Positions 35,425-52,615 of a DNA stretch of 64,000 bases are shown one piece after another; within the stretch, counting starts at the first letter, position 1, and each line of letters opens with the position of its first letter. The stretch spans positions 558,001-622,000 of the forward strand of contig NZ_UHHW01000002.1 of NCBI RefSeq assembly GCF_900460345.1, given 5' to 3'. The DNA comes from Trueperella pyogenes (lineage in GTDB: Bacteria > Actinomycetota > Actinomycetes > Actinomycetales > Actinomycetaceae). Under the pieces are notes generated by a model that had not been told where the DNA came from, searched no databases, and worked only from the letters and a program-made list of their open reading frames with translations. Both the position numbers and the translations under genes were made by a program.

Positions 35425-38400
35425 ATGCACCGCATCTACGTCGAAAAGAAGCCCGCAGAACGCCTCGAGGCCGCCGCGCTCGCCTCCGAACTACGCGACG
35501 TGCTTGGCCTGAGCATCGGCCAGGTGCGGGTGCTCAACCGCTACGACGTCGACGGCCTGACCGACGCCGAATTCGCCGCCGTCGTTCCCACGATCCTGTC
35601 CGAACCGCAGGTAGATATTACTTTTGCCTCGCTGGACGACGCCGGCCTGGCCGGTCACGTCTTCGCCGTCGAGCCGCTGCCGGGCCAGTACGACCAGCGC
35701 GCCGATTCGGCCGCCCAATGCATCCAGATCCAGCTCGGCGGCCAACGCCCGGTGGTACGGGCGGCGAAGATCTACGCCATCGAGGCCGACGCCGCCGCGC
35801 TCGCGGCCATCAAAAACTACGTCATCAACCCGGTCGAGGCACGCGAGGGCACGCTTGCACGGCCGGAAAGCCTGGCAGGCGAGACGACGGCGCCGGACGG
35901 CGTCGTGAACGTAGAACTCCTGGGGAAAGATGACGCGGAGCTTGCACAGTTGCGGGTCGAGCTGGGCCTGGCGATGAGCGAGGCGGATTTGGCGATGCTG
36001 CGCGACTACTTCGCCACCGAGGGGCGCCAGCCGACGCTGACCGAGGTCAAGGTGGTTGACACCTACTGGTCAGACCACTGCCGCCACACGACGTTCATGA
36101 CCGTGCTCGACGAGGTGACGTTTGACAATCCACAGGTGGAGCAGTCCTACCAGACCTATATCGACGCGCGCCGCGAACTGTGGCGTTCCAAGCCGATCAC
36201 CCTCATGGACATGGCCACAATCGGTGCAAAGCTCCTCAAGGCGCGCGGAAAGCTTGCGCACGTGGACGAGTCCGAGGAGATTAACGCCTGTACGATCAAG
36301 GTCGATGCAAAGGTTGGCGGAAAGGCCGAGCCTTGGCTGGTGCTGTTCAAGAACGAGACGCACAACCACCCCACCGAGATCGAGCCGTTCGGCGGAGCCG
36401 CCACCTGCATCGGCGGCGCGATCCGTGACCCGCTCTCCGGGCGCGGCTACGTTCACGGGGCAATGCGCCTGACCGGCAGCGGCGACCCACGCACACCCCT
36501 GTCCGAGACCCTCGCGGGCAAGCTGCCCCAACGCGCGATCGCACAGCGCGCGGCCGCCGGATACTCCTCGTACGGCAACCAGATCGGCCTGGCCACCGGC
36601 ATCGTCGACGAGATCTACCATCCCGGCTACGTGGCCAAGCACATGGAACTCGGCGCCGTCGTGGCAGCCGCACCGGCGGGCCAGGTGCGTAGGGAAGCGC
36701 CCCAGCCGGGCGACGTCGTGCTGCTCGTGGGCGGGGCGACCGGACGCGACGGCATCGGCGGCGCGACGGGCTCGTCGAAGACGCACACGGTGGAGTCGCT
36801 GACTAGCGCCGGCGCGGAAGTCCAGAAGGGCAACGCGCCCGAGGAACGCAAACTCCAGCGCCTGTTCCGCAACCCCGAGGCCGCGCTCCTCATCAAGCGC
36901 TGCAACGACTTCGGCGCGGGCGGCGTGGCCGTGGCGGTGGGCGAACTCACCGACGGGCTGGATATCAACCTCGACGCCGTGCCCAAGAAGTACGAGGGGC
37001 TTGACGGGACCGAGATCGCGATCTCGGAGAGCCAGGAGCGCATGGCCGTGGTGGTCGAGGCCAGCGACGCCGAGCGCTTCATCGAGCTGGCCGCAACGGA
37101 GAATCTGGAAGCGACCGTCATCGCAACCGTGAGTGACTCTGGGCGGCTGCGCATGTATTGGCGTGGCGAGCCGGTGGTGGACATCGCCCGCTCGTTCCTC
37201 GACACGAACGGCGCCGAACAGCGCGCGAACGCCGAGGTGGCGGCGTCGGGGGATTGGGCAGCGACGCGGCTTGGGCACAGCGGCACGTTCGCCGAACGCC
37301 TAGCTGAGGTGGCTTGCGACCTCAATGTGGCCTCGAAGAAAGGACTCTCCGAACGCTTTGACTCGACCGTGGGAGGGGGAACTGTCCTCATGCCCTTCGG
37401 CGGCTCGCTGCAAGCTACCCCGATTCAGGCGATGGCCCACCGCCTCCCTACCAGCGAAGAGACCGACGCCGTGTCCGTCATGTCGTGGGGCTACAACCCC
37501 TACCTGAGCGAAGCGAGCCCCTTCCACGGCGCATATCTGGCCGTGGTGGAATCCGTGGCTAAGCTGGTGGCCACCGGCGCGAGCAGCGAGGACGTCTACC
37601 TCTCCTTCCAAGAATACTTCGAGGGCCTAGGCCAGGATCCAGCCCGCTGGGGCAAGCCCGTGGCCGCCCTGCTCGGCGCGCTGGAAGCGCAGATCGGCCT
37701 GGGCGCCGGCGCAATTGGTGGCAAGGACTCGATGTCAGGCTCGTTTAACGAGCTGAGCGTGCCGCCCACGCTCGTCTCCTTCGCACTCGCCGTGGACGAG
37801 GCTGGAAACATGGTACCCAACCAGTTCAAGGCTTTGGGCAACCGTGTCAGCCTGCTGCGCCCCCGCATCGCCGACGGCGGAGCGCTAGCTGGCCTGCCCG
37901 AACCTGAGTCCCTGCAGGCGGTGTTTGCGCAGGTGACCGAGCTGCTACGCAGCGGCGCGGTGGTGAGCGCATACACGCCCGGCCGCGGCGGCGTGGCCGA
38001 GGCTGTGATGAAGATGGCCGCCGGCGAGGGCTTTGGCTTCGAATTCGCCGGCGAGGTCGGCCTCGACTCGCTATTCGACTACGCCTACGGCGCGTTCGTG
38101 CTCGAATGGGCCGAGGGCGCCGAGGTTGCTGGCCAGGTGCTGGGCACGGTGAGCGCGGAAGGCTTCACCTGGCGCGGCGAAAGCGTGCCCAGTGCGGAGA
38201 TCTTCACCCTCAATGCAAGCGTGCTCGACGACGTCTACCCCCGCCACGTAGACCAGCCAGGCCAGATTCCAGCAGGCCTACGCGGCGCCCCGGCATCGCC
38301 AGGCGCTGAGAAGGTGTGTGGCGGGACGCGCCGCAAGCCCAAGGTTCCTCAGGGGGAGAAGGTAAGGCGCGCGGGCGGCGTCGTCAATGCGCTGATCCCC

Positions 38401-39174
38401 GTCTTTCCCGGAACGAACTGCGAATATGACACCGCGCGGGCCGTCGAGGCTGCGGGCGCGAAGGCACACGTCTTCGTGGTAAAGAACCGTAGCGAAGAGG
38501 ACATTGCGCGGTCCGTGGAGGAATTCGCGGGCGTGCTCGCGGATTCACAGATGCTTATTATTCCCGGCGGATTCTCGGGTGGTGATGAGCCGGACGGGTC
38601 GGCGAAGTTTATTACGTCGTTCCTGCGCAACGAGGCGCTCGTCGCGGGTGTGGGGGAGCTACTGGGCGGCGACGGCCTTATCCTCGGCATCTGCAACGGC
38701 TTCCAGGCGCTGGTCAAGCTGGGGCTCGTGCCCTATGGCGAGATCGTGGAGCCGCGCGCTGATTCTCCGACGCTGACTTTTAACCGGATCGGGCGCCACC
38801 AGTCGGGCATCGTGCGGGTGCGGGTGGAAAACAATTCCAGCCCGTGGCTGGCCGGGGTCAAGCCGGGGGAGGTGTACTCGGTGCCGATCTCGCACGGTGA
38901 GGGACGCTTCCACATCTTAGACGCCGACCTGCAGGCGCTGATTGACGCAGGGCAGATCGCCACGCAGTACGTGGATCGTGCAGGCAATGCGACGATGGAC
39001 ATCACGGCTAACCCGAACGGCTCAGTTGCCGCGATCGAGGGCATCACCTCGCCTGACGGGCACGTATTTGGCAAGATGGGCCACGCCGAGCGCATCGGTG
39101 CAGGCCTCTACCGCAACGTGCCGGGCCGCTACGATATGCAGTTATTCGAGTCCGCGGTGGCGTACCTCGGCTAG
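35425..39174 (+). CDS. purL: Phosphoribosylformylglycinamidine synthase, single-chain
   Basis: A 1249-aa large PurL that fuses synthetase and glutaminase parts, instead of the PurS/PurQ/PurL set common in actinobacteria. N-terminal PurS-like region about 1-160; linker and two AIRS-type halves to about 970 (KNETHNHPTEIEPFGGA, 'VGGKDSMSGSF'-like IGGKDSMSGSF); C-terminal class I glutaminase from about residue 990 (FPGTNCEYDTARAVEAAGA, with Cys in LGICNGFQAL, and VPISHGEGRF). Slightly shorter than E. coli PurL (about 1295 aa). Starts 8 bp after purD. It ends the core purine genes; GC content drops sharply just after it. Confidence 0.95.
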   Translation: MHRIYVEKKPAERLEAAALASELRDVLGLSIGQVRVLNRYDVDGLTDAEFAAVVPTILSEPQVDITFASLDDAGLAGHVFAVEPLPGQYDQRADSAAQCIQIQLGGQRPVVRAAKIYAIEADAAALAAIKNYVINPVEAREGTLARPESLAGETTAPDGVVNVELLGKDDAELAQLRVELGLAMSEADLAMLRDYFATEGRQPTLTEVKVVDTYWSDHCRHTTFMTVLDEVTFDNPQVEQSYQTYIDARRELWRSKPITLMDMATIGAKLLKARGKLAHVDESEEINACTIKVDAKVGGKAEPWLVLFKNETHNHPTEIEPFGGAATCIGGAIRDPLSGRGYVHGAMRLTGSGDPRTPLSETLAGKLPQRAIAQRAAAGYSSYGNQIGLATGIVDEIYHPGYVAKHMELGAVVAAAPAGQVRREAPQPGDVVLLVGGATGRDGIGGATGSSKTHTVESLTSAGAEVQKGNAPEERKLQRLFRNPEAALLIKRCNDFGAGGVAVAVGELTDGLDINLDAVPKKYEGLDGTEIAISESQERMAVVVEASDAERFIELAATENLEATVIATVSDSGRLRMYWRGEPVVDIARSFLDTNGAEQRANAEVAASGDWAATRLGHSGTFAERLAEVACDLNVASKKGLSERFDSTVGGGTVLMPFGGSLQATPIQAMAHRLPTSEETDAVSVMSWGYNPYLSEASPFHGAYLAVVESVAKLVATGASSEDVYLSFQEYFEGLGQDPARWGKPVAALLGALEAQIGLGAGAIGGKDSMSGSFNELSVPPTLVSFALAVDEAGNMVPNQFKALGNRVSLLRPRIADGGALAGLPEPESLQAVFAQVTELLRSGAVVSAYTPGRGGVAEAVMKMAAGEGFGFEFAGEVGLDSLFDYAYGAFVLEWAEGAEVAGQVLGTVSAEGFTWRGESVPSAEIFTLNASVLDDVYPRHVDQPGQIPAGLRGAPASPGAEKVCGGTRRKPKVPQGEKVRRAGGVVNALIPVFPGTNCEYDTARAVEAAGAKAHVFVVKNRSEEDIARSVEEFAGVLADSQMLIIPGGFSGGDEPDGSAKFITSFLRNEALVAGVGELLGGDGLILGICNGFQALVKLGLVPYGEIVEPRADSPTLTFNRIGRHQSGIVRVRVENNSSPWLAGVKPGEVYSVPISHGEGRFHILDADLQALIDAGQIATQYVDRAGNATMDITANPNGSVAAIEGITSPDGHVFGKMGHAERIGAGLYRNVPGRYDMQLFESAVAYLG

Positions 39175-39206
39175 CGGGAAGTGATTTTCCAGAATTTTGC
39201 CTTCTC

Positions 39207-39936
39207 TCAAGCGCAAGCAAAAATGTAGTCTTTTAATGAGGCAAGCCGCATCAATTGTGGCCGAGAAACCGACGGGAAAACTGTCAGCCAAACAGTCAGC
39301 AGTCCTCCTTCAGGTACTATAAAATCTGTTGTCCGAATATCTGGAACCAGTAGCCCTTCTCGGTTTCGAATAGCAGGTACAAGATTTCCTTCCTGATCCA
39401 TGCATGTCATTCTCTTAAACCCCCCCGTAACGAGCATGTACGGGGGAAGTACCAAACCTAACATCTGTCAGAACGTCAGGTCCTTTGAACCCCTCTAATC
39501 TAAGAACAAGTTGTTTCACGATTTCTTCAAAGTGTTCTACGCTACTTGGATATATAGCTATAAACTTTCCAGATTGTACTCGATCTGCATACTTGCCCAA
39601 GCTCTTGGAAAGCTCACCGCTCGATCGTAGGAATTTAAATGAGAATTTAAGTTTAAGAGCAACTTGTTCTACATGATGTAGTATCTTTTGTGCTTCGTCG
39701 GGTGTAGCAGAAACATGGATTTTCCAGCCTTGATCTGGGATCGTTACTTTATGATTTACAAATACTCATGGGCCCTCGGAATTGATTTCCCATTCTTGAG
39801 TTGGAGATCGTCGTTTTTCTTCCATCAACGAATTTATGTGGTAAGTATTTTCATCATTTTCAGCATCATGTTTTAGGCCGTCTGAATAGAAAAGGCTGTT
39901 ATGTTTTACATAAGCTATTTCAACTGGTCTTGCCAT
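39207..39936 (-). pseudogene. Class III lanthionine synthetase (LanKC) remnant, N-terminal lyase part only
   Basis: Starting at ATG 39936 (MARPVEIAYVKHNSLFYSD), the reading frame meets TGA at 39768-39766 where LanKC proteins usually have Trp. It then continues as VFVNH...QGWKIHVSATPDEA, SFKFLRSSGEL, QSGKFIAIYP, to VHARYGG. At a run of seven G (39420-39426 on the minus strand) the frame breaks; removing one G gives RYGGFKRMTC and NLVPAIRNREGLLVPDIR, again as in LanKC. These are landmarks of the N-terminal lyase region of class III/IV lanthipeptide synthetases. The kinase and cyclase domains are absent: the sequence ends after about 240 residues. ATG overlaps the upstream permease stop by 17 bp. 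A-T-rich, foreign to its surroundings. Confidence 0.8.
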
Positions 39937-41818
39937 TACGCCACCTTCGAGCCGTTCGCAAAGAGTACTCCCCACCGACAAGATAGATAATGGCGATGAT
40001 ACTTAGAGTCACCATTAGAAACCCTCCAGCAACTATACGATCTAATGACAGCCCAATTCCTGATTCTTGGGCAAACGGCACCACAATCGACATGCTAAGA
40101 CCGATAGCAAATCCCAACAGCAGCAACGAAGCGACACAGCCGATAATCATTTCATAGAGACTGATTACTCGAAAATCTTTCGAGGATCCACCAACGGAAA
40201 ACAAAACCACACTCGACCGTCGAATCATCTCTCGGTACGCACCAATAGAGGTTCCAGTAACGAAAAGAGCCATAACCATTGGAATCAAAAACATAATTAT
40301 TAAAGCTGACCGTTGATTACGTTCGGTCTGCAAAATCCCAGTTTTGATCCATTCATCAATTGTTACAATGTCCCATTCAGTATTCCCAAGCTGTTCTTCT
40401 AAACCGTGGATACCAAGTAACGAGTATGCTGTCGTTTTCCTGACGCTCATCCCTCCACAAGGCGGGTTTTCGGCCATCCCAATGACATCAAATTTAAGGA
40501 GAGAAGGTGCACTAAGAGTCGCGGCAATCGTTAGCGTGCATTGACGGCCATCTGCCATATAAAAGCTCAATTCATCACCTACATTAAGACCACTATTACT
40601 TGTGGCAACATGGGTGGCATCCAATGAATCAATACTGCCGGCTCGTACTTTGAAGGATGGAAAAATATTTGAGGTCTTATGCAAATTAAACAAACCCACT
40701 GTAGGTTGAGTCGCTCCGTAGGGATCTTCCGTCCTATATAAATCATTAGAGGTACCCACAAGAAGAGTTCTCGAAACAGTTTTGCTTGTTGACGCCAGTT
40801 CCTCGACGTTTTTAAGGGACGTGGTAGTAGCTATCGATTGCGCATGAACTGAACTATAGATTTCAACTATAGAGACACTCCTGCCTGTGGCCATGACGGC
40901 AGATAACGGAACCATGAAAGCCATAACAATGGTTAGTGGAATTACAGGATTCATCCTCGAGGACATGCTTTGAGCAAGCCGTGCTAACGCTAACCCAAGA
41001 CGGGGAAATCTCCCCGTCTTACGCAGCGGGCGTTGCAATAAAATACAAATCTCTCTAAGGATACGCACGCCGTATACCAGCAGGATCAAACAGGACCAGG
41101 GGATTATAAGCACCATTCGCGTATCGGTCGGAATAGGAGAATTAGGTATTACAAGCGGAATCCCGAGAGCAACTGCAACGATAATTCCTACCAAGAATTT
41201 AATCTTGTGGTTTCTTCTATCTTGTACTGATTGCTCTTTAGTCCCATGCACCGATACCGTTTTAGCTACAGTCGTGCCAACAATGAGCGCAATCATCGCC
41301 ACGCAAACAAGAAGGCTAGACATCAGGTTAGCGTGAATCGTAATCTCTTTCGGTACTAGCCCGGCTGTCCTCAGCATTTGCCCGTATACCCATACTGCAG
41401 GGAAAAACATTAGTAGAGCAGCAAAAGTAGCTACTATGCCAAAAACAAGAGATTCAACAACGTGAGAAACTAAAAGATCATTAAAGGATAATCCAGCCAA
41501 ACGGAGTATTCTCACGGTATATTTACGTGAGGAATACCGTGCACTTAGTGCAGATACGAGTAACATCGCACTAATCGCAGCCGCAATAACCGCAAAAATT
41601 AAATTGAATTGGAAGGTGACTTCAAGAAGCGCGTTTATATTCGCTGCTTTCTGAAAATCTCCAGAAATAACTCTGGAGTGCCGTGCTGCTAAAACTGCAT
41701 TCCAAATGACACTATTCAATAATAAGCTGAGAATGCTCGTCAGCAAGAAGCCCCATCGATTCCTATCGAACAGCGATCGAAGTATAGAGAGCCTAGAAAG
41801 AGATACGTCATCTTCCAT
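39920..41818 (-). CDS. FtsX-like ABC transporter permease of the lanthipeptide-type island
   Basis: A 632-aa membrane protein with an FtsX-type plan: helix near 22-45, a cluster of helices (about 75-175 and 205-260), a helix near 300, an extracytoplasmic domain of roughly 180 residues (about 315-490), and three C-terminal helices (495-620). It follows its ATPase gene by 5 bp and overlaps the LanKC remnant, as in lanthipeptide export or immunity units. The open frame is intact. The substrate is unknown, and without a working synthetase the exporter may now serve self-protection or nothing. GC content is well below that of the flanking purL and whiB genes. Confidence 0.78.
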   Translation of the reverse strand: MEDDVSLSRLSILRSLFDRNRWGFLLTSILSLLLNSVIWNAVLAARHSRVISGDFQKAANINALLEVTFQFNLIFAVIAAAISAMLLVSALSARYSSRKYTVRILRLAGLSFNDLLVSHVVESLVFGIVATFAALLMFFPAVWVYGQMLRTAGLVPKEITIHANLMSSLLVCVAMIALIVGTTVAKTVSVHGTKEQSVQDRRNHKIKFLVGIIVAVALGIPLVIPNSPIPTDTRMVLIIPWSCLILLVYGVRILREICILLQRPLRKTGRFPRLGLALARLAQSMSSRMNPVIPLTIVMAFMVPLSAVMATGRSVSIVEIYSSVHAQSIATTTSLKNVEELASTSKTVSRTLLVGTSNDLYRTEDPYGATQPTVGLFNLHKTSNIFPSFKVRAGSIDSLDATHVATSNSGLNVGDELSFYMADGRQCTLTIAATLSAPSLLKFDVIGMAENPPCGGMSVRKTTAYSLLGIHGLEEQLGNTEWDIVTIDEWIKTGILQTERNQRSALIIMFLIPMVMALFVTGTSIGAYREMIRRSSVVLFSVGGSSKDFRVISLYEMIIGCVASLLLLGFAIGLSMSIVVPFAQESGIGLSLDRIVAGGFLMVTLSIIAIIYLVGGEYSLRTARRWRNGKTS

Positions 41819-41823
41819 AACAG

Positions 41824-42558
41824 CTACCTGCTTTGCACAAGTTCGAAGATCTGTGACTCGGTGGGTGCTGTCAGACTTCCGCAGATTTTTCCATCTCGTA
41901 GAAGAACAACCCGATCCGCTTTTGAAGCGGCATGTATATCGTGCGTAACCATCAAAATTGACATGCCGGATAATTTCAGTTGCCGAAATATATCCAATAT
42001 TTCCTCAGAACTAATGCTATCCAAAGCCCCAGTAGGCTCATCAGCAAATAAAACTGTGGGTTCCTGGGCTACAGCACGAGCTAACGCCACACGTTGCTTT
42101 TCACCACCAGAAAGAAAACTTACCGGCTTCCCTCTTAGACCTCCGATACCAATTTTATCTATCGCCTGCCCTACGCGGGCTGCGATATTTGCACTTCCAT
42201 CGAGAGCTAGAGGCAATGCGATATTTTGTTCAACCGTAATCTCATCTATCAAATTGTAGTCTTGGAAAACATAGGCTAAGTTCTTTCGTCTAAGTATTGC
42301 CTTTTCTTTATCGCCCATAGTTGTAATATTTGCGTCGGCAATATATACATCTCCCTCATCTGGATGGATGATCCCGGAGGCGCAGTTAAGAAAAGTGGTT
42401 TTCCCTGAACCTGAGGCTCCCATAAGCGCAACCCACTCTCCGGAACTAAGAACCAGTGACATGTCACTTAAAACTCTTTGTTTCCGGCGTGAACTACCGG
42501 TTCTGAATGACTTGGAAATACTTATAGCGCGGAGGACGCTTTTATTGTCAACAGTCAT
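41824..42558 (-). CDS. ABC transporter ATPase, MacB/LolD type
   Basis: A 244-aa nucleotide-binding subunit. Walker A is GASGSGKTT (near residue 48), the Q-loop is VFQDYN, the signature LSGGEKQRVALARA and Walker B VLFADEPTGALDS are intact, followed by MVTHD. This is the LolD/SalX type that pairs with FtsX-like permeases such as the one 5 bp downstream. ATG 42558 overlaps the stop of the upstream fragment (ATGA); a GTG at 42570 is the alternative. All parts needed for activity are present. Confidence 0.87.
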   Translation of the reverse strand: MTVDNKSVLRAISISKSFRTGSSRRKQRVLSDMSLVLSSGEWVALMGASGSGKTTFLNCASGIIHPDEGDVYIADANITTMGDKEKAILRRKNLAYVFQDYNLIDEITVEQNIALPLALDGSANIAARVGQAIDKIGIGGLRGKPVSFLSGGEKQRVALARAVAQEPTVLFADEPTGALDSISSEEILDIFRQLKLSGMSILMVTHDIHAASKADRVVLLRDGKICGSLTAPTESQIFELVQSR

Positions 42559-42881
42559 CTTAGATTCCACTCACCTAACAAGTGCCTAAGCTCTTCAGAA
42601 TTCTGCAAACACTCATCAGTATTACCATCTAGCACTATTTTCCCTTCTCTAATCATGAGAATGTTGTCTGATGCGCGAACGGTGTACGGTCTATGAGCGA
42701 CAATAAGGACTGGAATATTCTGAGCGCATTCTTTTACAGTCTCAATCATCAAGCGTTCCATTTGTCCATCGACACTCGATGTCGGCTCATCAAGAAACAA
42801 TGCTGCTGGCTGTCCAACCAAAGCTCTGGACCGAAGATATTCATGAACCCTCCTTGAAAATATGTGTGAAGTCTTTATCAC
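42555..42881 (-). pseudogene. C-terminal fragment of an ABC exporter ATPase (truncated)
   Basis: 108 codons that match only the end of an ABC exporter: 'LRSRALVGQPAALFLDEPTSS' without its Walker A half, then 'VLIVAHRPYTVRASDNILMI' with the H-loop histidine and REGKIVLDG. The signature motif is degenerate (FSRRVHEY in place of LSGGQ). The N-terminal membrane domain and Walker A are missing, and sequence resembling an IS end begins within about 15 bp upstream. Probably the stump of a LanT-type exporter cut off by an insertion. Confidence 0.7.
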
Positions 42882-42894
42882 ACAATTCTATCCG

Positions 42895-42922
42895 GGGCTA
42901 TCTCATAAAGTGTGTAATTGGT
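42895..42922. mobile_element. IS-end-like sequence (possibly IS256 type)
   Basis: GGCTATCTCATAAAGTGTGT at about 42898-42917 followed by AATTGG resembles terminal inverted repeats of actinobacterial IS256-family elements as I remember them. No transposase is attached. It sits at the broken end of the exporter fragment, where an insertion would be expected. Weak evidence. Confidence 0.35.
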
Positions 42923-43023
42923 GTTTTGATCGTTAGTAGTGGAGTGCCTCAGGTTTTTAGCTCCAGTTGGCTTGAGTGTTGTCCATTGATGTCTCGCCCT
43001 TGGGGTGAGGAGAGTGGAGACAC

Positions 43024-43331
43024 GGTGAAAGAATCAGTAAGCGCACCCGGGGCAGATTGTTCGTGAGCTCGACAAAGCGCGGCGGATGAAGGAAGAGGGA
43101 CCGACGAGGGCTCAGATCCTGGTCGAGCTGGGGATTAGCGAAGCGATGCTGTATCGCTGGCAAGTAACTTATGACTCGATGACTATGAGCGAGGCTAAAG
43201 AGCTCCAGCGTCCGCGTGATGAAAACGGGCACTTGGCGCAATACTTGGCCTGCAAATCGGCTACTGGCTGCACCTATCTTCACAACCTGTCGCATGCCTA
43301 TTTACTGGTGCTGCCTTATGGATTTTCATAG
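43024..43331 (+). mobile_element. IS3-family OrfA transposase remnant
   Basis: The readable part (from 43050) gives GQIVRELDKARRMKEEG, RAQILVELGISEAMLYRWQ and 'MTMSEAKELQRPRDENGHLAQ', the N-terminal helix-turn-helix and leucine-zipper-like part of IS3 OrfA proteins. Upstream, KRISKRT lies in another frame, so there is a frameshift near 43045. OrfB with its DDE domain is missing. After about residue 60 the match ends. It marks the boundary between the foreign island and the whiB region. Confidence 0.6.
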
Positions 43332-43481: not shown

Positions 43482-43778
43482 TCAGGAGGCGCGGCTACGG
43501 CGTCGTTGACGCGACAGCCGGTTGCGCTCCTCCTCGGAGAGCCCGCCCCACACCCCGTAAGGCTCGTTGTGAGACAGGGCGTACTCGCGGCACTCGTCTA
43601 GTACGGGGCAGCTTTGGCAGATGCGCTTCGCCCGTTCGATACGCCGCCGCCGCGGGCCGCCACGTTCACCCTCGGGGTGGAAGAAGAATTCAGGATCCAT
43701 CATGTTGCAAGACCCGAGAGCCTGCCAGTCCCAATAGTCGACTAGTGCCCCGTGCACATCCTTGATCCGAGCTACCAC
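43482..43778 (-). CDS. WhiB-family iron-sulfur transcription factor
   Basis: A 98-aa protein with the four cluster cysteines C24, C54, C57 and C63 (GSCNMMDPEFFFHPEGERG and ICQSCPVLDEC). The turn motif EPYGVWGGL follows, with a basic C-terminal tail RLSRQRRRSRAS for DNA contact. GTG 43778 has AAGGA seven bases upstream; the frame reaches back to 43817 without homology. The FHPEGERG segment resembles WhiB2/WhmD-type proteins, involved in division and septation, but this subgroup call is tentative. Confidence 0.92.
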   Translation of the reverse strand: MVARIKDVHGALVDYWDWQALGSCNMMDPEFFFHPEGERGGPRRRRIERAKRICQSCPVLDECREYALSHNEPYGVWGGLSEEERNRLSRQRRRSRAS

Positions 43779-43961
43779 GATCACTTCCTTACATGCCCAA
43801 TGGCTAACTTGCTTCACCAGAGCAACGGCTGGTGAGAATCCAACAACGAGGGTACCCCACAGGGGAGTAATTTGGAATAGCCCAAGTTCCGCGCAGAGAA
43901 AACGTCCACATGGCGAACCCTGATGTTTCTGCCATGAGACGGGCTGGGGCGTCGCAGCTAA

Positions 43962-49236: not shown

Positions 49237-49245
49237 AGAGGATTG

Positions 49246-49800
49246 ATGAGTACGCAATTCGCCGTCCTTGGTCTGCTCGCCAAGGAACCGAACTACGGCT
49301 ACGAGCTCAAAAAGATGTACGACGATCTTTTCGCTGGGGACAAGCCCATTCTCCCTGGCCAGCTCTACGCCATCCTAGGGCGTCTCGCCCGTGACGCCGC
49401 GATCGCCAAAATCGACGACACTGGTATATCCGGCGGCCCGGAACGCACGCGCTACGCCGTCACCGACGTCGGACACGAGCGCCTTCTCGCTTGGCTGCGC
49501 CAACCCGAGGCTCCGGCTCCCACGCTCCAAGCCACCCTCTACATGAAGGTCATCCTCGCGCTCATGCTCGACGGCGACGCGGCTCCCTTCATCCACGACC
49601 AGAAGGTAGCCCACCTCGCCCGCATGCGAGAACTCGTCGCCCGGCGTCGTCGGGCAGCGCTCGCCGAACGCATCCTGCTCGACAACGCTATTTTCCACAT
49701 CGAGGCCGACATCCGCTGGATGGACATGACCGCCAGCCGCCTCACTCACCTGAAAGAAGAACTATGGAACACGACATCATCCTCGAAGCCCGAAGCCTAA
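49246..49800 (+). CDS. PadR-family transcriptional regulator
   Basis: A 184-aa regulator. Residues 1-85 are the PadR winged helix: FAVLGLLAKEPNYGYELKKM and 'LPGQLYAILGRLARDAAIAK', with a typical wing ERTRYAVTDVG. The C-terminal part (PadR/Vir type, about 90-184) is a helical dimer domain. ATG 49246 is favoured over a TTG three bases earlier. Its stop overlaps the ABC ATPase start by 37 bp, and a large dyad lies in front, so it probably controls the transporter in response to a toxic substrate. Confidence 0.92.
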   Translation: MSTQFAVLGLLAKEPNYGYELKKMYDDLFAGDKPILPGQLYAILGRLARDAAIAKIDDTGISGGPERTRYAVTDVGHERLLAWLRQPEAPAPTLQATLYMKVILALMLDGDAAPFIHDQKVAHLARMRELVARRRRAALAERILLDNAIFHIEADIRWMDMTASRLTHLKEELWNTTSSSKPEA

Positions 49801-50435
49801 AGAAGGCATTCGGCCGCACCGAAGCCATGCGCGGCATCGACCTCAACGTGGAACGAGGCGAAATCCTCGCCATCATGGGGCCCTCCGGCTCCGGAAAATC
49901 CACCCTCCTGCACGCACTCGCTGCCATCGAGCGCCCCGACGACGGCACAGTATTCTTCAACGGCGCACGCATCGACAGCCTTTCCGACGCCGAGCGCACC
50001 ATCCTCCGCCGCACCAAGTTCGGCTTCGTATTCCAGTTCGGGCAACTCGTGCCCGAACTGACGGCGCTGGACAACGTCATGGTGCCCCTCATGCTCGGCG
50101 GCGTGCGCAAGGGCGAAGCTGTACGGCGGGCTAAGGAATGGCTAGCGCGCGTCGGCCTAGCCGACCGAGCCGAGCTCCTGCCCGGCCAACTCTCCGGCGG
50201 TGAAGCCCAGCGCGTGGCCATCGCCCGCTCGCTCATCATCCGCCCCGAGATACTGTTTGCCGACGAACCGACCGGCGCCCTCGATTCCTTCAACTCCGAG
50301 CAGGTCATGGAGATGATCGTCCAGCTCGCTCGCGCAGAAGGCTTGACGGTCGTCATGGTCACCCACGAACCCATGATCGCCGCTTTCGCCGACCGAGAGA
50401 TAGTGGTACGTGACGGCCGAATCGAGGCACAATGA
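49764..50435 (+). CDS. ABC transporter ATPase controlled by PadR
   Basis: A 223-aa MacB/LolD-type ATPase. Walker A is GPSGSGKST (39-47), the Q-loop is VFQFGQ, the signature is LSGGEAQRVAIARS and Walker B ILFADEPTGALDS. It forms an exporter with the FtsX-like permease downstream, whose ATG overlaps its stop (ATGA). ATG 49764 starts the conserved N-terminus; the frame upstream lies inside padR. Confidence 0.93.
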   Translation: MEHDIILEARSLKKAFGRTEAMRGIDLNVERGEILAIMGPSGSGKSTLLHALAAIERPDDGTVFFNGARIDSLSDAERTILRRTKFGFVFQFGQLVPELTALDNVMVPLMLGGVRKGEAVRRAKEWLARVGLADRAELLPGQLSGGEAQRVAIARSLIIRPEILFADEPTGALDSFNSEQVMEMIVQLARAEGLTVVMVTHEPMIAAFADREIVVRDGRIEAQ

Positions 50436-52615
50436 GACTAGCAGCCAGCCTATTTCGTGCCAGCGCCAGGCAAAGCCGCGGGCGGCTCACGATGCTCACC
50501 GGCGCCGTCGCTTTCGGCGTCCTCATCCTCTTCCTTTTCTCCGCCTACCATCACGCCATTTTCGACACCACCCACACCGCGTGGCGCACCGCCTACGGCG
50601 AAGCCAGGCATGCCCGCTTTGAAGGCAACACCTCGGTAAGGACGCCCTCCGGTGAGGGCGACCCACTGTGGATGGAGTCGATCCTCTCCCCGGTTTTTAA
50701 ACTCGGCGACGAAGGCATAAACACAATGCATGTGGCCACCGATGGTGGCTCTCCCGAAAAACCAGAAGGGCTGCCCGCTTGGCCAGAGCCGGGACAGTAC
50801 TGGGTATCACCCGCTGTCGCACAGTTCCTCACCGATCACCCACAATACGACGCCGGTAGCCGCTTTGGCACCACACAGCTTGGCGTCCTGCCTGAGCAGA
50901 TGCTCGCCAGCCCTGACGAGCACCTAGTCATCGTCGGAGTAGAGCGCGCCGCCATCCCGGATGCGCTTCCCATCACTGACTTCCACCGCGACGGGCAAAT
51001 CGCCAGCAACATCATCAGCGCTGTCATATACCTCGGCATCGTCATCGTGCTCTTCCCCGTGGTCATCCTCATTTCCATTGCCGCCAAGCTCGGCAGCGTT
51101 CAACGCGAACAGCGCTACGCTGCATTACGGTTGGTAGGAGCCACAAACAAGCAAATCCTCAGCATCGTCACCTTCGAATCGCTCGTCGCCGCCGTTGTCG
51201 GCTACGCGCTCGGCGCGCTCGCCTACCTAGCAACGCGTCCGCTCCTCTTCGACATCTCTTTCGGTCACAGGCAGTGGCCCAGCCGCATTAGCCTCACACC
51301 GTGGCACTGGGTGATAGTCGCCCTGGCCACACTCGCCCTCATTTTCTTCTCTAACGCATGGGGCATGCGCGGCTTACGCGTCTCACCATTGGGCGTAGCT
51401 CGACAACAAAAACATGACGCCACTCCCAGAATTTGGCGTTTGCTCCCACTTCTAGCGGGCGTCGCGATCTTCACCTACATCTACATCTCTACCACGGAAA
51501 ACAAAGGAACCGAGCAGACCATCTACTTGATACTCGCCGGTGTCATGATGACGATGATCGGGTTGATCGTCGCCGGACCGTGGATCACCTACGTCCTCGG
51601 GGCGCTGGCCCGCAAGGCAGCCCAGTCAGCCGACATCTTCATCGGTTCATCCTACGTTCGCGCCCACGCAGGGCGAGTCTCCCGCTCGGTCGTCGGAGTA
51701 GTCCTCGCCCTCTTCGCAGGCAGCTTCTTCCTCACAGCAGTGTCAGACGTCGATTTCGACCGCTTCACACAGAGCAACACCGAACTCGCCACGGGCACGG
51801 TGAACGTGCAGGCGCCAGCAGAAGACCTTGCGCGACTTGCGGAATTCACCTGGGTAAAGAACATCACTAACGTCCCGCAGCTGTCCGGCGTCTACCGAGT
51901 CCTGCCCTGCGATAGTGCCCGCGACTACCTGCCAAATGTGCGCTGCGATGGCGGCGTCGTCGGTTTCAACCCCTACACAGATAAAAAGGATGCCTACCTT
52001 ATCGGGGCGGACCTGCGCGAGATAGCGCGATTGCTTGAAGAGCGCGGAGCCTATATCGAATACGACCCGGCGGGCGATCCGGTCGCCGAAAATGTTGCAG
52101 TCATTCAACTGCGCGAAGCGGCCGACATCGACCATCTGCGCACAGCCCTCAAGGACCAGTCCTTTAACCCGGATCTGTCTATTCTTGATGGCAGAGGCGG
52201 CAGGGGCATGAACACGCAGATTTATACGCTGACGATGATGACCTACATGGGCATCGGAGTAACGCTGATCGTGTCGGTGATCTCGCTGGTCGTGTCCACC
52301 TATGCGGGCTTGCTGGAGCGGCGCAGGTCGCTCCTCAGCCTGCGGCTGTCCGGCATGAAGATCAGCCAACTGGGCAAGATGGTGCTGGTCGAATCGTTCG
52401 TTCCACTCGTGGCTATGGCAACCGTGGCGACTGCCGCCGGCATTGGTGCTGGCTTCGTCCTCATGCATGCCGTGTCGTATTCGCTCAATGCGCGTCTGAA
52501 CGGGCTATATGTGGCGGTGCTGATCGGGGCGCTCATCGCGGCGGGCTTCGCCATCGCGGCGATCCTGCCGTCAATGAAGAAGATGACGCAGCTATCAGTC
52601 AACCGGACGGAATAG
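50432..52615 (+). CDS. FtsX-like ABC permease controlled by PadR
   Basis: A 727-aa membrane protein. One helix near 22-45, a large extracytoplasmic loop (about 50-190), three helices (about 195-310), further helices near 335-410, a second extracytoplasmic region (about 420-600) and a C-terminal FtsX core of three helices (about 605-715). This two-domain plan is that of peptide/antibiotic exporters in actinobacteria. It is co-transcribed with padR and the ATPase. The substrate is unknown. Confidence 0.9.
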   Translation: MRLAASLFRASARQSRGRLTMLTGAVAFGVLILFLFSAYHHAIFDTTHTAWRTAYGEARHARFEGNTSVRTPSGEGDPLWMESILSPVFKLGDEGINTMHVATDGGSPEKPEGLPAWPEPGQYWVSPAVAQFLTDHPQYDAGSRFGTTQLGVLPEQMLASPDEHLVIVGVERAAIPDALPITDFHRDGQIASNIISAVIYLGIVIVLFPVVILISIAAKLGSVQREQRYAALRLVGATNKQILSIVTFESLVAAVVGYALGALAYLATRPLLFDISFGHRQWPSRISLTPWHWVIVALATLALIFFSNAWGMRGLRVSPLGVARQQKHDATPRIWRLLPLLAGVAIFTYIYISTTENKGTEQTIYLILAGVMMTMIGLIVAGPWITYVLGALARKAAQSADIFIGSSYVRAHAGRVSRSVVGVVLALFAGSFFLTAVSDVDFDRFTQSNTELATGTVNVQAPAEDLARLAEFTWVKNITNVPQLSGVYRVLPCDSARDYLPNVRCDGGVVGFNPYTDKKDAYLIGADLREIARLLEERGAYIEYDPAGDPVAENVAVIQLREAADIDHLRTALKDQSFNPDLSILDGRGGRGMNTQIYTLTMMTYMGIGVTLIVSVISLVVSTYAGLLERRRSLLSLRLSGMKISQLGKMVLVESFVPLVAMATVATAAGIGAGFVLMHAVSYSLNARLNGLYVAVLIGALIAAGFAIAAILPSMKKMTQLSVNRTE

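Follow-up and report, generated by a model that had tools for sequence, protein, structure and literature searches.

In a 64,000-nucleotide stretch of Trueperella pyogenes DNA (assembly GCF_900460345.1, contig NZ_UHHW01000002.1, positions 558,001 to 622,000; hereafter the window), an AT-rich island of 4.3 kb occupies the spacer between the convergent genes purL and whiB. We propose that this island is probably a transferred class III lanthipeptide operon that was broken at both ends by insertion sequences (IS), and that its two intact genes, which encode an ATP-binding cassette (ABC) ATPase and a permease, once conferred immunity and may still be protective. The core of the island (39307-42827) aligns as one collinear DNA block, at 69%, with a class III lanthipeptide operon that is intact in a related metagenome-assembled genome (MAG), Actinomycetaceae SUG1761 (JAQYDG010000003.1; genome G025, locus L006). 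Read along the operon strand (minus), the core consists of the end of an exporter gene, the ATPase gene, the FtsX-type permease gene and the N-terminal 210 residues of the lanthipeptide synthetase LanKC in two pieces. An original prediction made from the letters alone had described four minus-strand genes here, and all four were found at those positions and on that strand. The features of the island are as follows.

39236..39305, minus strand: IS remnant, partly repeated at three further sites of the genome (75%, 87% and 87%)
39306..39419, minus strand: LanKC remnant, residues 173-210, in another frame than the preceding residues (38/38 identical to T. pyogenes P0007; RamC_N, 4.7e-6)
39421..39936, minus strand: LanKC remnant, residues 1-172, lyase region (168/172 identical to T. 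pyogenes P0007)
39920..41818, minus strand: intact FtsX-type permease with BceB-like topology, 632 residues (PF02687, 4.2e-7)
41824..42570, minus strand: intact BceA-like ABC ATPase, 248 residues (PF00005, 9.7e-34; Walker A and LSGGE found)
42555..42830, minus strand: truncated lanthipeptide exporter, of which the C-terminal 91 residues and the stop codon are left (80% identical to the L006 exporter, residues 471-561)
42894..42940, minus strand: 47-bp repeat that may form the end of a further insertion sequence (87% copy at G000:C2:2083324)
42940..43235, plus strand: remnant of an IS3-like element, 296 bp, with one end and the start of orfA (76% to the element start at G000:C2:295010)

The LanKC and exporter remnants

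Both LanKC pieces match RamC_N (PF25816), the larger at 4e-21 and the smaller with 26.6 bits, slightly below the 27-bit cut-off. They also match full-length LanKC and the class III LanKC model NF038151 (75.2 and 29.9 bits, far below the whole-protein cut-off), which upholds the identity that the original prediction had given them; the class IV model NF038150 reaches 47.9 bits, with the better piece only. P0007, an 861-residue class III LanKC of T. pyogenes found by a protein search with the SUG1761 LanKC, scores 602.6 bits against the class III model (cut-off 575) and shares 98% of the 210 residues that the remnant retains. Judging from sequence, other T. pyogenes carry a full-length LanKC gene. 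In the remnant, an in-frame stop at 39766-39768 counts among the four differences from P0007, the reading frame shifts near 39419 and LanKC homology stops at 39306. Two of the landmarks originally cited for this gene, QGWKIHVSATP and QSGKFIAIYP, are both present in one frame; the third, RYGGF, is interrupted by the frameshift and cannot be read contiguously in any one frame.

The kinase and cyclase parts of LanKC are missing at the locus and genome-wide. The sole LanKC and RamC_N matches of the genome (2.31 Mb in 5 contigs, rated 99.99% complete) are the locus pieces, and no other kinase/cyclase gene of this kind occurs in it. The locus is therefore a remnant and not functional. The absence of a PF05147 match was dropped as proof that the cyclase is gone, since the full-length LanKCs P0007 and P0005 (T. 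pyogenes and MAG proteins), both of which exceed the class III cut-off, give no match at E 0.01 either; the genome search with LanKC was used instead. Compared with class III LanKCs of the RamC, LabKC and ThurKC type, the likeness thus lies in the RamC_N lyase region and in full-length relatives that pass the class III cut-off, while the differences are that only residues 1-210 are left here and that these relatives lack the PF05147 match. A further RamC_N remnant, with two internal stops, was seen near an ABC ATPase in another genome (G078, L059:7713-7908).

At the other end of the island, the exporter ATPase is truncated as originally described, only its final 91 residues surviving. Exporter homology stops at 42830 while the open reading frame (ORF) itself begins at 42881, so that its first 17 codons are not of exporter origin.

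The intact operon and its precursor

A search of 200 genomes of the family with the permease gave two matches, the genome studied here and SUG1761. In the latter, a 41-residue LanA precursor candidate (L006:8387-8509) is followed by a full exporter (ABC_membrane and ABC_tran domains) and then by the genes for the ATPase, permease and LanKC. Identity to the products of the island is 80% for the exporter piece, 74% for the ATPase, 61% for the permease and 71% for the LanKC piece. The gene order is the same, but the SUG1761 operon is intact and lies not beside purL and whiB but next to two tandem large serine recombinases, directly before it, and a phage-type amidase further up (L006:3674-8176), a neighbourhood that could have served the operon as a means of transfer. 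A comparison with related strains, which the original prediction had recommended, has thus yielded both a full-length LanKC from T. pyogenes and an intact operon with a LanA candidate.

The leader of this candidate contains IFDLQ, a sequence similar to the LxLQ motif; the core has two Sx2Sx2C units, close to the class III core motif Sx2Sx3C given in the available text of PMC7268733. Within the window, a pattern combining an LxLQ-like leader with an Sx2SxnC core found no precursor. Across 13 LanKC loci (187 kb) the precursor pattern scan gave five matches, one of them antisense to a recombinase ORF, and a stricter pattern, devised after these five had been viewed, gave four; eight Markov-shuffled control sets returned 0, 0, 1, 0, 0, 1, 1 and 0 matches for the loose pattern and 0, 0, 1, 0, 0, 0, 0 and 0 for the strict one. 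Additional class III precursor candidates lie beside LanKC in other Actinomycetaceae (L051:7191-7313, L052:10353-10463 and L054:10203-10310). The genome studied here holds no detectable relative of the SUG1761 LanA (best E 0.152, a 20-residue match in a long frame), bearing in mind that precursors diverge fast and that the pattern scan covered the window; a protein database search with the same peptide recovered only the peptide itself. The proposed loss of precursor, kinase and cyclase is therefore in agreement with the data, genome-wide for the two enzyme domains and, for the precursor, as far as the window pattern and genome relatives of the SUG1761 LanA reach.

Insertion-sequence remnants at or near the two breaks

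On the left side, LanKC homology ends at 39306, next to the IS remnant. Segment 39275-39305, where LanKC is cut, has the look of a terminal repeat of IS3 type. Two further copies of it (87%) and, at a third place, one of a longer stretch that overlaps it (75%) occur elsewhere in the genome; the sequence of the left remnant has one match in the window. At L046 the copy lies beside an ORF bearing rve and HTH_21 domains, and a 24-bp inverted partner of it is found at a distance of 1.2 kb, as expected for an IS3-type element. For the remnant on the right, the fuller element at G000:C2:295010 has a later ORF that bears the same two domains. The right remnant itself matches HTH_Tnp_1 at 1.9e-4, slightly short of the cut-off, and an IS3 transposase at 0.0019, far short of it; a PHROGs scan of the transposase remnant matched no family. 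The simplest reading of both breaks would be that insertion sequences landed there and the parts beyond them were then lost, and we infer that IS activity caused these losses.

An intact ABC pair, probably of the BceAB type

Both genes of the ABC unit are whole, and the FtsX-type assignment of the permease is confirmed by its PF02687 match. The best database match of the permease is T. pyogenes P0001 (99%; 624 of 632 residues identical). Its hydropathy profile has ten hydrophobic segments, with 194 residues (311-504) separating segments 7 and 8. This approximates the hallmark of BceAB transporters in the available text of PMC5786555, namely ten predicted helices with an external domain of ~200-250 amino acids between VII and VIII. 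The ATPase had originally been called MacB-type, a label that we would replace by BceA-like: when the best 60 of the 98 solved sequences at E 1e-30 were compared, its four best relatives were BceA (three) and PsdA, with E values of 1.5e-48 for BceA and 3.2e-47 for PsdA. By these comparisons the intact pair, one ATPase with one ten-segment permease, looks like a BceAB/PsdAB-type rather than a MacB-type transporter, though it differs from known BceAB/PsdAB systems in its place inside a lanthipeptide operon. An anti-phage label for the ATPase (PADLOC mad3, 1.5e-30) was judged to reflect generic ABC similarity, and a single-sequence match of the permease to a subunit of the acetylcholine receptor (0.034) was set aside as a chance result.

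In its presumed role the pair also resembles LanFEG, an immunity ABC transporter encoded within producer operons. LanFEG, however, has two membrane proteins, with six helices each in NisEG (available text of PMC5786555), where the island encodes one large FtsX permease.

Probable arrival by transfer in the purL-whiB spacer

The island is bordered by the following genes.

35425..39174, plus strand: purL, left flank (ORF; the alignment with the sister genome G026 reaches 39170 at 91%)
43482..43817, minus strand: whiB, right flank (PF02467, 7.9e-26)

The left ORF is one that we take, from its sequence, to be purL. The core of the island has a GC content of 43.8% as against 61.3% for the whole window, and the five lowest-GC 3.5-kb stretches of the window all begin within 39101-39501, in keeping with the AT-rich island between GC-rich flanks originally described. 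In G026, whose purL is the most similar among the sister genomes, the island is absent and the purL-whiB spacer measures 55 bp. The spacer is 130 bp in G055 and 1.5-1.7 kb in G079, G129 and G122. The right-flank whiB was found in all nine genomes of the genus, our own included, and the end of purL in seven of the nine; G097 and G110, which gave no purL match, and G136, where the purL and whiB matches lie on different contigs, are uninformative for the spacer.

The longer spacers of G079, G129 and G122 contain one homologous insert, 99% identical between G129 and G122 and 81% between G129 and G079. It includes a 414-residue ORF (L037:2444-3685 in G129, L038:63-1304 in G122) that is apparently split in G079 (L036 after 2278), contains an ATP-binding loop as judged by eye and has a GC content below that of the flanks. 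Since this insert differs from the island, the purL-whiB spacer has received at least two unrelated inserts. RamC_N occurs in 15 of 213 genomes of the family, counting our own; the other eight of the genus lack it. The low GC, the empty site in a sister genome and this distribution all support the proposed arrival by transfer.

Elsewhere in the window and outside the AT-rich island, 49243-52615 holds a separate set of three putative genes: a small regulator-like ORF, an ABC ATPase and a 727-residue permease-like ORF.

A model for the decay of the locus

We suggest the following course of events. An operon with the order LanA, exporter, BceAB-type pair and LanKC, as in SUG1761, would have entered the purL-whiB spacer by transfer. 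Insertion sequences would then have landed at or near both ends, and the DNA beyond them would have been lost. On one side the loss would have taken LanA together with the greater part of the exporter; on the other it would have taken the kinase and cyclase of LanKC, whose remaining part gained a stop and a frameshift. The resulting strain would be unable to make the peptide. The ABC pair would originally have shielded the producer by taking the mature peptide off its membrane target, and it may still guard against producing neighbours. Self-immunity is the likeliest original job of the pair. That selection keeps it is only hinted at; retention is possible but unproven. Of the original suggestion that the ABC unit stayed intact, perhaps for self-immunity, the intactness stands. 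The pair is undamaged beside damaged neighbours and resembles a peptide-resistance type, but its being kept for immunity is not established.

Several observations weigh against this model. On the right side the end of the exporter (42830) falls 64 bp short of the nearest IS-like sequence. No two-component system, the usual partner of BceAB, was noticed among the island ORFs, no genome-wide search for one having been made. Single-sequence and family-profile searches of solved structures with the permease returned no BceB match, and an AlphaFold model built from 5 sequences had a pLDDT (predicted local distance difference test) of 38.5 and was unusable. Among 12 LanKC loci from 13 other genomes with RamC_N besides G025 (G203 was left out), only three (L051, L053 and L054) have a BceA-like ATPase of 36% identity or more in the neighbourhood of LanKC; none was seen in the other nine, some of which are cut by contig ends. 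An FtsX permease follows the ATPase in L051 and L053, and the L054 sequence stops there. These two permeases have two FtsX stretches each as against one in the window permease, and may therefore belong to another subtype.

A further set of difficulties leads to a plainer account, to be taken seriously, in which the origin is the same but the whole island is under neutral decay, the truncation being simply too recent for the ABC pair to have been damaged. Relative to T. pyogenes proteins, the permease (8 changes in 632 residues) and the LanKC pieces (4 in 210) are equally little changed (Fisher p = 0.51). The promoter of the operon was probably upstream of LanA and is now gone, and upstream of the ATPase there are one promoter-like site (0.9 expected) and, on the operon strand, two terminator-like sites (0.9 expected), so that no clear promoter is left. 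Against such neutral decay, both LanKC lesions fall in 630 bp and none in the 2646 bp of the ABC genes, four times as much sequence, a weak point that would arise by chance with a probability of 0.037 if lesions were even (two events, post hoc). Arcanobacterium canis, too, pairs a full-length permease (P0004) with a LanKC relative of 589 residues that is without the lyase region (P0008), probably on the same contig; this is possibly a second case of decay, or else a wrongly called start.

It is also conceivable, though we consider it unlikely, that the pair performed a second export or processing step for the lanthipeptide instead of providing immunity, and was left without substrate once the exporter and LanKC were lost. 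Among NCBIfam models the ATPase does match TIGR03608 best, a putative bacteriocin export ATPase (194.4 bits, under the cut-off of 254.85), but the intact operon has a separate exporter ahead of the ATPase, and the permease topology is BceB-like by hydropathy. An assembly or sequencing error that makes an intact gene appear broken could account for one stop and one frameshift; it is very improbable as an explanation of the locus, as each truncation is a structural break that has IS-like sequence at it or close by, and the lost parts of LanKC are nowhere in the nearly complete assembly.

Our literature search, with most subscription journals outside its reach, turned up no paper on a class III lanthipeptide cluster for T. 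pyogenes; the available parts of PMC12715929 and PMC11580447 mention the species in other contexts. The present analysis adds the full-length homologues and the LanA candidate, identifies the insertion site and the IS remnants at both breaks, and reads the ABC pair as BceAB-like. As the full-length LanKCs of this branch have no detectable PF05147 domain, mining based on the cyclase could miss them. If the ABC pair is an immunity module, it would offer a testable handle on self-protection of class III producers and on competition between strains within a species. More tentatively, some class III operons of Actinomycetaceae might carry a BceAB-like self-immunity module, and non-producers in T. 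pyogenes, and perhaps A. canis, might shed the synthetase and keep the pair, so that producers and resistant non-producers would coexist in one species.

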